Under the pieces are notes generated by a model. It was not told the DNA's origin and searched no databases. It worked only from the letters and a program-made list of their open reading frames with translations. Source: Alphaproteobacteria bacterium SS10 (GTDB taxonomy: Bacteria; Pseudomonadota; Alphaproteobacteria; TMED2). From it: 41,622 nucleotides of DNA. The translations under genes were made by a program, and so were the position numbers. The stretch covers positions 1,283,096 to 1,324,717 of the forward strand of contig JAHCML010000003.1 in assembly GCA_019192455.1 (NCBI GenBank). The letters are read 5' to 3'. Shown here piece by piece: positions 14,868-38,936 of the stretch (within the stretch, counting starts at the first letter, position 1; each line of letters begins with the position of its first letter).

Positions 14868-14986
14868 CGTGCCCCATCACCATTTCAGAAACTTCAGTTT
14901 TCCACAGGATTTAGCGGCCTAAAGGTGCGCTTCCCACCACATGTTGTAGCGTGACGCATTGGATTCGTTTGCCCAAAGGCCCGCCC

Positions 14987-16738
14987 ATGCGCGCTCCATC
15001 GCTATTCATAAACCGCCATTCGTTCGGTGCTCTCGCCCTGACCGCGCTCCTGGGGCTGCCAGCAAATGCACAGACCATTGCAGGCCAGGCACCAGGCTAT
15101 TTGCCAGCAGCCCCGCGCACACCGGTGGCAACGACGGCGTTTAACCCGCTGCAGGCTGGCCATGTTGTTACTGGCGGCGCCGTGGTTGAACGGGCAGGCA
15201 TTCTGAATGTTGAGGGCAACACGATCCGGCTACTTGGCATCATCGTGCCATTGGAGACCGCCGCACAAAGCAGAGCGGCTGGTGACCTTATCCGTCTTAC
15301 GAACAACCAGATTGTTGAATGTGCGATCGTCGGCACTGACACCGATGGCCTGGCGCTTGGTGCTTGCGGTACCGATACCTTCCCCAATCTTGCCCTGGCC
15401 ATGATCGATAGTGGCCGTGCCCTGGTGGATCGTCAGCAGGTCGCCGGCACCCCGGTTGCAGACCTTTATCTTGATGCTGAGCGTCAGGCACGTCGTGCCG
15501 ATCTCGGCCTTTGGGGACCTGAGGCAGGTCCAGTGCCGCGCCACCTGGCGGGCATTCCCCGCTCCACCCCGTCTGATTTGGCTCCTCCGGGCCGTAAACC
15601 TGGTATGGAGAACCTAGTTGCCAGCCTAGGTGTTGGCCCTGTCCTGCGCCTGCAGGATGGCACTGAGGTTCCAATTAACACCCTGGTCGCCGCCGCTACC
15701 CAAGCAACACCAGCAGCACCGGCTGAAACCATGGCGGCTGATCTAAGCGCCAGCTTCGTTCCGCCCGATGTGCCGCTGCCCAATGCACGCCCAACTGGCA
15801 CCCCGCCCGCCTCCCAGCTGGATCTTTACACCCTTGGCTTGAGAGAACTGCCGGGCAGTGAGATGTCACGACAGGTTGCCAGCCTCGATGGCCCTGCCCC
15901 GATGGTGCTTGAGCAACAAGCCGCTGGCGTTGGCAATGGCCTCGTTAGCCTGATCGGGCATCTGGATCAGGTCATTAACCGTCATCAAGCGGCCAAGGAT
16001 AATGGCCAGCTATACCTGCCAACCGCACCTGGCCAATCGCCACGAACTGAACCACTCAATGGTGGCATTAGCTTCTTTGGTTGGTTGCTACTACTGAGTG
16101 CTAGCGGTGCCTTCGGCGCCGCGGCTGCCTATGCCTATCGTTGGTATTCCGGCCTTTGGCCTTGGGAGCGTGTCACCACTGAACCTGCAGCTGTTTGGGC
16201 TGAGCGTCAGCGCCAGGCCCTGGTGCTGGCTCAAGAGTTAGACCGGGAGGCACTAAACCTATCCTTTGCCCTGTCTGAGCGTGCCGACATTGCGCGGCTT
16301 GCAGCTGCCAAGCCATCGGGCCGCACTGCCGGTGATCTTAGGACGCTGCGCGTCGATCCACTTAATCTCATTACTGATAACTGGGACCGCATTGGCCGGA
16401 TCAGCCGATCCATTGGCCTGCAGGCCCGTATGCTGCACAGCCGGATGGCGGAGTATGATCGCCGGGTTAGCGAGCTTGCGACCATGGCCGCTGATGGCCG
16501 CCTGCATGAGAGTGGGCATGAGGTGTTTGGTGCCCTGGCCAAGCGGTTGGATGAACTATCCCTGGAATCCAAGGCACTGCATCAATCCTTGCGCCAACGA
16601 ACCAAGGCTGCAAAGCCAAAGCGTCGGAAGCAACGACGCCCTGCCAGTGCCCGCACCACGGCGCGGGTTAAACAGGATGTGCGTGTCGCCCCGCTTGGCC
16701 CATCAGTTGGTGGTTGGTCAGAGGTTGCGCGTGCGTAG
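14987..16738 (+). CDS. Membrane protein with a degenerate thermonuclease-like (SNase) periplasmic domain
   Basis: The 583-residue protein starts with a signal peptide (MRAPSLFINR, hydrophobic to ANAQ near 29). Residues 60-177 resemble a staphylococcal-nuclease fold: IRLLGIIVPLE matches the RLLxVDxPE strand, and YLDAERQARRADLGLWG matches the closing Y..E..AR...LGLW helix. The catalytic set looks broken: the Asp and Glu of DxPE become Ile and Leu, and the Arg after the YG turn is Asp. Cys112 and Cys127 could form a disulfide. A Pro/Ala-rich linker follows, then one membrane helix at about 361-386, a helical cytoplasmic domain at 400-540 and a basic tail (KRRKQRR). A GTG start at 14951 is possible, but the ATG at 14987 fits the signal peptide. 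Function unknown. Confidence 0.75.
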   Translation: MRAPSLFINRHSFGALALTALLGLPANAQTIAGQAPGYLPAAPRTPVATTAFNPLQAGHVVTGGAVVERAGILNVEGNTIRLLGIIVPLETAAQSRAAGDLIRLTNNQIVECAIVGTDTDGLALGACGTDTFPNLALAMIDSGRALVDRQQVAGTPVADLYLDAERQARRADLGLWGPEAGPVPRHLAGIPRSTPSDLAPPGRKPGMENLVASLGVGPVLRLQDGTEVPINTLVAAATQATPAAPAETMAADLSASFVPPDVPLPNARPTGTPPASQLDLYTLGLRELPGSEMSRQVASLDGPAPMVLEQQAAGVGNGLVSLIGHLDQVINRHQAAKDNGQLYLPTAPGQSPRTEPLNGGISFFGWLLLLSASGAFGAAAAYAYRWYSGLWPWERVTTEPAAVWAERQRQALVLAQELDREALNLSFALSERADIARLAAAKPSGRTAGDLRTLRVDPLNLITDNWDRIGRISRSIGLQARMLHSRMAEYDRRVSELATMAADGRLHESGHEVFGALAKRLDELSLESKALHQSLRQRTKAAKPKRRKQRRPASARTTARVKQDVRVAPLGPSVGGWSEVARA

Positions 16739-35444: not shown

Positions 35445-38400
35445 TTAGGCCTGGCCCTGGGCTGGCATTTTTTCGATGTCTTCATCGGAGAGCGGTTGAC
35501 GCTCAATGCCCTGGCAAAGCGCTAGATAGAGCTTACCGATATCTGAGGTCATGAAGGTTGAGCTCAGCAGATCACCGTGATCGGTGCTGATTGCCCGGCC
35601 AAACACTTCCTCGAACTGGCGGATATAGCGCTGAACATAGAGGCGGAATTCGCTGTTCTCTTCAAACAGCATCTTGATCTTACCAACCGCAATCTTGTCC
35701 TTGCTGGACACAAGGCGGCGGGTAAAGACGCTGGTGTCACCAGAAGCAAACGACTTCCAGAGGGCCTCAGGCGCTTCATCATCGAGCATCCGAACAAAGT
35801 CGACAGAGATTGAGTGTAGGCTCTCAATCACGAATTTCGCGGCCGCCAGGAAGGCGTCACGCTGGGCCTCAGAGTCCGTATCCTTGATCAGCTTGGCCTG
35901 CTCCATTGCCTTCTCTGCCGCCTCGGCAAGAGCCTCGGCATGGCGACGGAAGGTATCGGACACATCGCTCGACTTGGTCGACGCGCTGTCGGCGGCCTCC
36001 ATAAGCTTCTCAGAATGGCGGGACACGCTAGAGCTTGCACCCTCAAGTGACTTCACAACCCGGTCGGTACGATCACCCAGTTCTTGTAGGCGGATACCGA
36101 GGCTGATCGTGCTGTCTTCCAGGCGGTTCAGCGTGGCGTCATAGGCAGCAGCGAAGTTGGCCCGCTGCTCCATCATCTTGTTCTCAATCTGGCCAATCCG
36201 GATGAACACCGTCTCGGTTGATGTCACGAACTGGTTCGACTGGTTGCTAAGTGACATGCGAACACTGTCGAGCTGGCTAACCTGATCATTTGTCTGGTTA
36301 AGCACACCGTCGAGGTCGGAGCGCAGCTCACCAAGCGCGCCATTCAGCTTATTCACCGTCTCATCGGCCATATCGTTGATCTGGCTGACTTCCTCGACCA
36401 AGGCTTGGCCTAGGCCACGTAGGCGTTCGGTATTGCCCTCGGCACCTTCGCTGAGTTGATCCAGATAGGTGCGCAGACGCTCCTCAACCGAACCAAACTC
36501 ACCAAGCGCATCGCCCAAGGTGTCGTTCAGGAAGTTCAGGCGACCTTGCAGACCCTTGCTGAGGTTATCAACCCGCTGACCCGTACGGTCGACCAGGGCA
36601 TCAACGTCATCCAGCTTCTCACCCAACTGATCAGACAACGCCTGAACCTTCTCAAGAACCTCATCCGGCTTACCGGTGATGTTGGCCATCTCACGGTCGA
36701 AGGTTGCTGCAATAGATGCCAGACGCTCACCGGCGAGATCCGAAGATTCTTGCAGTTCAGCGAGCTTGCCGGACAGATCGCCCTCAATATCACCAATGCG
36801 GTTAAGCGATTTGCCAACCAGGGCATCGGCCTCGGTCACCGTCTCGGTCAAACGCGAGGACACGGCGTTCAGGTTGTCGAGGGTCATGCGTGACAGCTCG
36901 CCCAGATCGCCACCACGCTTGGAGAAGTTAGTGATGATGTCGTCCATATCGGACTGGACACGCTGCATACCGGATTTCAGCTCGCCAATTTGCTCGCTGA
37001 TCTTCGTACCGATGCGGTTAACCCGCGCCTCGGTCTCCGCGGCACCGGAGCGCAGAACCTCAAGCTCATCAGCGACGCGCTTGCTGGCAACGCCCAAGTT
37101 CTCGGCGACGGTCTCACCCACCTGATTGATTTGCTCAGCTTGATTATCCAAACCGGCAGAGGCTTGGTTGACCTGGGAAACAGCATCGTTAGCCGCCTCA
37201 CCAAGCGCCAGCGCCTCACGGGACAAGCTATCCCGCATGGAGGTTAGCTGCTCCAGAGCACCATTGGTCAGGGCGGTCAGCTTGTTCACCTCTTCGCCCA
37301 GATTGTCGTTCATGGCTTGGCTGCTGCCGAGCAGATGCTTGGAGAGTTGATCGACACGCTCTTCCTGACCATCCAGGGTCGCGACAAAGCTTTCGGCCTC
37401 GACCTTGGTCTGTTCACCGGCCTCTTGAAGTTTCGCGATAGACTCAGACAGCTGATCGACGACGAGGTCACTGGTCCCTTTAGCATTCTCACCAGCAGCA
37501 CGAACCCGCTCAGCCTGGGCCACAAGGGTTGCATCCAGACTACGCAGATCACCGAGGCGGGCATTGAGCTCTTCTTCAATGCCACGCAACGTGGCGGTCT
37601 GACTTTCCGTATCGCTGTTGGCGTCCTTCAAGGCGTCGGTCGCGGTGTTCAGATCACCGGTAAGTTGCTGGGTTGCCCCCGCTGCTTTGGCCAGGGTGGT
37701 TGCCGTCTCACCAATCTCACCACGCATGGCGATGAACTTCTCAGTCAGGGCCACCGTGGCTTCACGCAATGCCTCGATAGTCTGGCTCGACTGCTCATTG
37801 ACCTGGTCGCCGTTCACCTTGGCATCGGCCATGGCCTTCTGAACCCGGGCCACCTGGTCTTCAATCTTCGCGGCCAGGCCATCAACGACAGATGATGCAT
37901 TGCCATGTGCTGCTTCAAATGCGGTCAACTGACGACGCATCATTTCATTAGCGGCACGCATGCCCTTAGCCGACTGAATAGCGGCAGTCCGCAACAGGTC
38001 CGCATTCCGGCCCAATGGAACCGCGAGGCTCTCAGCCAGTGTTGAAGCGTTCTCAGCCAGGATTTTGTAGTCGTCGACACGGCGGCCCAGGGCAGCCTCG
38101 GCGTCGGTTAGACGATCCGTGATGGTTTGGGTCGTCTCTTCCACCTTGCTGAATTGACCAGCGGTGGACTCCCGCGCCTGCTCCAACTTCTCTTGGAAGG
38201 TATCGGCTGCGGTGCCAAGCTCATCGACCATGCCGCTTACCTGGACCTTAAGGTCACCGGTACGGCCCTCAAGCGAGTTCAGAATGGCGGCGGTCTGCTC
38301 TTCAGTATTATTGGCCTGATCACGAAGCAGGCCAATCGCCTCATCAATCCCGGCACTTTGCTCTCGAAGGAATGAGCCAACCCGGTCCACCTCACCCGCA

Positions 38401-38936
38401 CTACGGGCGGAGACAGCAGTGAGTGCTTCGGTTTCATGGCGGAGGGATTGGCGTGCCTGATCAATCCGGCTGATCGCTAGATTGGTGGCATCGGCGAGCA
38501 TTTTGACCTGACGGTCCGTTGCCTCCGTAATCGCTTGCAGGCGGGCCTCAGCCTTATCAACCGGCATGGTGATCTGGGCGGAGGTTTTGCGGAGTGCTTC
38601 AGCAACTGTTCGCTGATCGGCATTGCGCTGAATGAACAGGGCAATCAGCCATAGAACGGCAAGCGGTGCGATACCGACGCTGAACTGGCTAATGATCTCC
38701 AAAACCGGGGTGGTCTGAAGGTCTAGACCTTGTTGAACCAGGAGGTAGCCGAGGCCACCAACCCAACCAATGCTGACCAACAGTGATAACCAACCAAACA
38801 GACGCGGCAGCAACGGGCGCTTCACCTCAATCACGGCTGGGGCAGATTGTGGAAGGTAAGAGACACCACCACGCGCACGTGGGTGGGTTGCTGCCAACGC
38901 TTCATCACGCATCGGCGTATTGATCGTCTCGGTCAT
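35445..38936 (-). CDS. Large coiled-coil membrane protein, TipN-like
   Basis: The 1163-residue protein has a cytoplasmic start of about 45 residues and two membrane helices at about 46-67 and 83-102. A very long helical part from about 110 to 1020, rich in Glu, Gln, Ser, Thr and heptad-like Leu/Val, follows. The end (about 1020-1163) looks globular, with APEALWKSF, FTRRLVSSKD, LYVQRYIRQFEEVF and SSDIGKLYLAL-like segments (SSTFMTSDIGKLYLAL). Two N-terminal membrane helices plus a huge coiled coil match Caulobacter TipN, a new-pole landmark that guides polarity and flagellum placement. The call is by architecture, not shared residues. Alternatives are an MCP-like or kinesin-like coiled coil of unknown role; no signalling hairpin of a chemoreceptor is seen. 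Confidence 0.75.
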   Translation of the reverse strand: MTETINTPMRDEALAATHPRARGGVSYLPQSAPAVIEVKRPLLPRLFGWLSLLVSIGWVGGLGYLLVQQGLDLQTTPVLEIISQFSVGIAPLAVLWLIALFIQRNADQRTVAEALRKTSAQITMPVDKAEARLQAITEATDRQVKMLADATNLAISRIDQARQSLRHETEALTAVSARSAGEVDRVGSFLREQSAGIDEAIGLLRDQANNTEEQTAAILNSLEGRTGDLKVQVSGMVDELGTAADTFQEKLEQARESTAGQFSKVEETTQTITDRLTDAEAALGRRVDDYKILAENASTLAESLAVPLGRNADLLRTAAIQSAKGMRAANEMMRRQLTAFEAAHGNASSVVDGLAAKIEDQVARVQKAMADAKVNGDQVNEQSSQTIEALREATVALTEKFIAMRGEIGETATTLAKAAGATQQLTGDLNTATDALKDANSDTESQTATLRGIEEELNARLGDLRSLDATLVAQAERVRAAGENAKGTSDLVVDQLSESIAKLQEAGEQTKVEAESFVATLDGQEERVDQLSKHLLGSSQAMNDNLGEEVNKLTALTNGALEQLTSMRDSLSREALALGEAANDAVSQVNQASAGLDNQAEQINQVGETVAENLGVASKRVADELEVLRSGAAETEARVNRIGTKISEQIGELKSGMQRVQSDMDDIITNFSKRGGDLGELSRMTLDNLNAVSSRLTETVTEADALVGKSLNRIGDIEGDLSGKLAELQESSDLAGERLASIAATFDREMANITGKPDEVLEKVQALSDQLGEKLDDVDALVDRTGQRVDNLSKGLQGRLNFLNDTLGDALGEFGSVEERLRTYLDQLSEGAEGNTERLRGLGQALVEEVSQINDMADETVNKLNGALGELRSDLDGVLNQTNDQVSQLDSVRMSLSNQSNQFVTSTETVFIRIGQIENKMMEQRANFAAAYDATLNRLEDSTISLGIRLQELGDRTDRVVKSLEGASSSVSRHSEKLMEAADSASTKSSDVSDTFRRHAEALAEAAEKAMEQAKLIKDTDSEAQRDAFLAAAKFVIESLHSISVDFVRMLDDEAPEALWKSFASGDTSVFTRRLVSSKDKIAVGKIKMLFEENSEFRLYVQRYIRQFEEVFGRAISTDHGDLLSSTFMTSDIGKLYLALCQGIERQPLSDEDIEKMPAQGQA

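Follow-up and report, generated by a model that had tools for sequence, protein, structure and literature searches.

The locus analysed here raises the question of whether a membrane protein that keeps the scaffold of a staphylococcal nuclease (SNase) domain can still be a nuclease and, if not, what its barrel may serve for. Its gene lies in the window, i.e. the whole stretch of 41,622 nucleotides under analysis, and its features are collected in Table 1.

The gene and the layout of its product

The reading frame runs from an ATG at 14987 to a stop codon at 16736–16738, with 583 codons without interruption, and a GTG at 14951, upstream of this ATG, is a possible alternative start. On its 5′ side lie glnB-glnA, and on its 3′ side genes for a thioesterase (convergent) and for a ParE/GyrB-type topoisomerase. 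The G+C content by codon position (14987–16735) was 0.72/0.54/0.57, with values of ~0.59–0.66/0.39–0.44/0.65–0.71 in the neighbouring genes. Elsewhere in the window, a 1,163-aa protein (35448–38936) gave sub-threshold Pfam matches only, which were coiled-coil-like.

Table 1. Features of the gene and its product, in window coordinates
Feature	Residues	Position	Strand	Basis
Whole gene; bitopic membrane protein of 583 aa, SNase domain degenerate		14987..16738	+	Open reading frame
Predicted signal peptide (..LTALLGLPANAQ)	1–29	14987..15073	+	Sequence; A-x-A then Q
Post-signal proline motif APGYLPAAPRTPVA	34–47	15086..15127	+	Regular-expression match
Degenerate SNase domain, predicted periplasmic	57–178	15155..15520	+	AlphaFold2, VIA-align, Pfam SNase
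Former active-site strands: Asp19 to Arg69, Asp21 to Gly71, Arg35 kept (Arg81), Asp40 to Ile86, Glu43 to Leu89		15191..15253	+	Alignments
Probable disulfide bridging strands 4 and 5, with Leu122 between the two Cys	Cys112 and Cys127	15320..15367	+	Cys conservation
Low-complexity periplasmic linker	181–363	15527..16075	+	Low pLDDT, composition
Single membrane helix	~361–383	16067..16135	+	Hydropathy; model helices 364–387
Predicted cytoplasmic three-helix region	401–542	16187..16612	+	AlphaFold2
Basic C-terminal tail (KPKRRKQRR...)	543–583	16613..16735	+	12 Lys/Arg vs. 2 Asp/Glu; pI 12

The A-x-A followed by Q at the end of the predicted signal peptide also appears in relatives (AFAQ, AHAQ and VTAQ). 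Right behind the signal peptide, a proline motif (P.P..xPRxPV) was found by regular expression in 25 of 25 members of the nearest clade, the window included, as against 0 of 25 in the second clade and 2 of 969 background ORFs; the window carries a shortened form of it (APRTPV), and a similar stretch, PPPPAVPV, occurs in the third clade. Further on, the linker is 42% Pro/Ala/Thr/Gly and had AlphaFold2 pLDDT values mostly below 50, with a single small ordered element near residues 219–238, while the cytoplasmic region was modelled as helices 401–440, 458–502 and 510–542 (pLDDT mostly 65–86). The one membrane helix, the helical C-terminal region and the basic tail described in the earlier note were thus borne out by hydropathy, model and composition. 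Moreover, one membrane helix was found behind the SNase domain in the long members of the family described below, and an excess of Lys/Arg C-terminal of this helix appeared in 43 of 50 members, as expected for a cytoplasmic C-terminus. In the window protein the charge bias around the helix is neutral (1 vs. 1), and we infer an orientation with the N-terminus outside, the SNase domain in the periplasm and the C-terminus in the cytoplasm.

The SNase fold and its active site

The input alignment for AlphaFold2 contained 41 SNase fragments from related loci, so that the model was guided by true SNase relatives; it is supported independently by residue conservation and by the match to the profile. 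Residues ~57–180 were modelled with a pLDDT of ~97, with strands and helices ordered as in SNase, and the superposition of residues 57–178 on staphylococcal nuclease by VIA-align gave a Z of 16.3 (rmsd ~2.4 Å, 119 residues, 21% identity), in agreement with the fold claimed in the earlier note. All 50 of the 50 matches listed by Foldseek against the PDB were staphylococcal nuclease (E from 5e−8), and a relative from clade A, modelled from its own alignment, matched SNase as well. The barrel and the closing helices are present in the window protein, including the closing helix that had been noted before (YLDAERQARRADLGLW, residues 161–176). The Pfam SNase profile (PF00565) scored 19.7 bits in the window, with a cut-off of 21, and 23.2 bits in the whole-genome search, above that cut-off, and it matched 9 of 9 family members scanned, with a best E of 3.6e−14. 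A phmmer search of the PDB with the whole window protein gave no match, NCBIfam gave weak local matches only, and the anti-phage defence models of PADLOC gave one weak local match in the window (SNc+LTD, E 8e−4), restricted to the SNase closing region, and none in the relatives.

The active site was compared with that of a canonical relative, L015 (VIDGDT...RLHGIDAPE...RYGR), using staphylococcal nuclease numbering, in which we take Asp21 and Asp40 to be metal ligands. Of the six active-site positions, Arg35 (Arg81) is the sole survivor in the window protein; the Ca2+-ligand positions Asp21/Asp40 read Gly71/Ile86, and Arg87 aligns to Leu122. The catalytic set is hence lost, as the earlier note had stated, and the Ile and Leu that it read at the catalytic Asp and Glu were right, but the second Arg is replaced by Leu122, next to Asp120-Gly121, and not by Asp. 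The roles of Arg35, Glu43 and Arg87 in staphylococcal nuclease are given in PMC8436206, while in a mycoplasma SNase the ion ligands are two Asp and a Thr, and the catalytic site consists of Arg, Glu and Arg (PMC3585158). A fold kept this well without the metal ligands, the general base and Arg87 speaks for a role other than catalysis, and the window protein would thus be without nuclease activity.

Cys112 and Cys127 have counterparts in 51 of 51 long family members and probably form a disulfide that stabilises the barrel. The changed pocket is itself strongly conserved in the nearest order (RLFGIVPPQLSA..GPQAR), which suggests that it is under selection for a different role and is not decaying. 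The window protein has no GPQAR pocket motif.

A family in several alphaproteobacterial orders

Scans of genome and viral contigs with a single protein gave no relatives, and long relatives were recovered by searches within the class. The domain profile was matched in 28 of 33 genomes of the order of G353, mostly by long proteins, in 68 of 94 genomes of the order of G219, where long proteins and short thermonucleases were mixed, and in 15 of 17 genomes of the order of G037. The named contigs of the G353 group are proteobacterial metagenome bins, mostly alphaproteobacterial, two of them labelled Micavibrio. The bitopic layout of the window protein (signal peptide, degenerate SNase domain, one membrane helix and helical C-terminal region) has its equivalent in these three other orders, where a signal peptide or N-terminal hydrophobic stretch is followed by SNase, one membrane helix and cytoplasmic helices. 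The architecture is therefore real and recurrent, as a family of degenerate SNase membrane proteins in several alphaproteobacterial orders and not a one-off; a description of it was not found in the open-access literature, so one may still exist.

The fold, the residue loss, its conservation across the family and the single membrane helix are computational observations. A total of 51 long proteins were compared, comprising the first two groups (orders of G353 and G219), L005 from another family and the window protein, and the catalytic loss extends across them: Glu43 was present in 0 of 51 and Asp40 in at most 5, some of which may be alignment shifts. In the third group (order of G037), Asp40 was lost in at least 13 of 14 members, L149 being uncertain, and Glu43 was retained in two (L145 and L147). 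Other positions are kept more often, as clade A mostly retains Asp19, Arg35, a Glu at position 21 and Arg87, and clade C retains Asp19, Asp21 and often Arg35. Furthermore, a distant relative, L012, has the intact D-D-R-D-E set in the same layout, so the layout by itself does not imply inactivity.

In the domain tree, a branch with a support of 73/80 set apart the long proteins of the first two groups, and the window protein came next to the first clade (80/79), but its own branch is so long that this placement is unsure. Among the long members the window protein has diverged furthest, with an end branch of 2 changes per site, and it stands as one divergent sequence without a close relative in the genomes searched. 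Because of this divergence and the missing GPQAR, inferences made at the level of the family may not hold for it.

The C-terminal regions gave fainter signals. A helical C-terminal domain was common to the first two clades by hhalign at an E of 1e−4, with a probability of 30% only, and L123 of the third clade matched the pooled profile of both. The C-terminal region of the window protein had no match to the two clade profiles or the pooled one, gave one single-sequence match, to L123, that is suggestive only, scored 5.9 bits against the combined family profile, a value reached by 24 of 5,000 shuffled sequences, and gave marginal matches only when searched alone against 385 genomes of the class (best E 0.002). 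A long helix followed by others was seen in the C-terminal regions of both the window and the clade A relative models, and the relationship of the window region to the cytoplasmic domain of the family is suggestive only. Three members (L148, L149 and L150) stop just past the membrane helix, and the cytoplasmic domain is thus not essential in every member.

No neighbouring gene conserved across orders was found, as the flanks differ from order to order and sharing between orders is sporadic, e.g. a lipoate ligase-like gene at three loci. In three genomes of one family of the second clade (L054, L055 and L056), the pseudo-SNase gene adjoins xseA, the gene for the large subunit of exonuclease VII; the conserved surroundings include purD and, slightly further away, a TerD-domain gene. 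Another family gene (L044/L047, G395:C1:641697-642201) is split over two reading frames, which looks like the result of a frameshift or an assembly error.

Possible roles of the barrel

The window protein shares with the staphylococcal nuclease/thermonuclease family (PF00565) its export, the barrel topology, the closing helix and the likeness to solved structures measured above, but it lacks the catalytic Asp, Glu and second Arg, and its barrel belongs to a bitopic membrane protein that also has a cytoplasmic domain. The short alphaproteobacterial thermonucleases L015 and L152 likewise have a closing helix of the form Y..E..A....G.W and the conserved Cys pair around the fifth strand, whereas they keep VIDGDT, GIDAPE and the catalytic-type DR(Y/D)GR and have no cytoplasmic domain. 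In eTudor/Tudor-SN, an SNase-derived domain with mutated catalytic residues is reused for protein binding (PMC7641849), which sets a precedent for a dead SNase-derived fold as a protein binder, although eTudor is eukaryotic, carries an inserted Tudor domain and has no membrane helix. The plant CAN proteins are also SNase proteins associated with the membrane, but they are described as DNases, and what attaches them to the plasma membrane is a predicted lipid modification instead of a membrane helix (PMC3505149). SNase proteins of bacteria readily receive a nuclease annotation, and the label 'thermonuclease' would mislead for this family, since the catalytic residues are lost while the fold and the membrane architecture are kept.

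We lean slightly towards the proposal that a non-catalytic SNase barrel in the periplasm serves for binding or as a scaffold, and that it is coupled across the membrane with a helical domain in the cytoplasm. The protein would sit in the inner membrane with its N-terminus outside and its barrel in the periplasm, stabilised by the conserved Cys pair. This barrel would no longer cut, because Asp21 and Asp40 (Ca2+ ligands), Glu43 (general base) and Arg87 are gone, and it could instead offer a surface for a protein or other envelope component rather than for nucleic acid, with the long flexible linker and the one membrane helix connecting it to the cytoplasmic helices and their basic tail. Nucleic acid, which the earlier note had considered as a ligand, is disfavoured because the SNase domain of the window protein is acidic (pI 4.5, with clade medians of 6.1 and 5.8). 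The class of ligand, a partner and signalling across the membrane are matters that we infer, and ligand sensing fits no better than protein binding or scaffolding. Should the barrel serve as a receptor or scaffold, bacteria would have a parallel to the reuse of the dead SNase fold in eukaryotic eTudor proteins.

A transmembrane receptor family spread over several orders, in which the nuclease-dead barrel senses a ligand and signals via one membrane helix to a helical domain in the cytoplasm that has not been described before, is a reading that we hold only tentatively and consider rather doubtful. An envelope scaffold without ligand sensing, whose dead barrel, proline motif and linker hold a structure of the periplasm or cell wall to the inner membrane and to a partner in the cytoplasm, seems similarly unlikely: the proline motif in all members of the nearest clade, the long linkers of variable length, the Pfam scan with no signalling domain and the members without a cytoplasmic domain speak for it, but the changed pocket conserved in the nearest order resembles a binding site and most members keep the cytoplasmic domain.

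Residual activity may be conceivable in members with Asp19, Arg35, Glu/Asp at position 21 and Arg87. That the family is still a nuclease using this other residue set is consistent with the residues mostly kept in clade A, with those of clade C, two of which also have Glu43, and with the intact set of L012 in the same layout; we nevertheless judge it quite improbable, as the window protein has Arg35 only and hydrophobic residues at the Asp40 and Glu43 positions. There is a comparably slim chance that the window copy is a decaying relic of a functional ancestor, being lost in this lineage. The longest branch among long members, the lost GPQAR motif and a codon-position G+C content (0.72/0.54/0.57) unlike that of the neighbours would fit such decay, but the 583-codon frame is intact, the fold is predicted with confidence, and the residues that determine it are kept, as are the two Cys and the closing helix.

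In its own genome, the window ORF was the only full-length match, and three further SNase proteins (L118, L119 and L120) were found. The 16S of this organism has ~90% identity to Ensifer records among plasmids. As L119 and L120 retain VIDGDT or VVDGDT plus DIQAPE motifs, nuclease function may be covered elsewhere in this genome. The third, L118 (290 aa, G000:C5:185534-185857), has an apparent twin-arginine-type N-terminus and GIQAPK in place of the expected GIDAPE; its Asp40 and Glu43 positions also look changed, and comparable GIKAP forms appear in L045 and L057.
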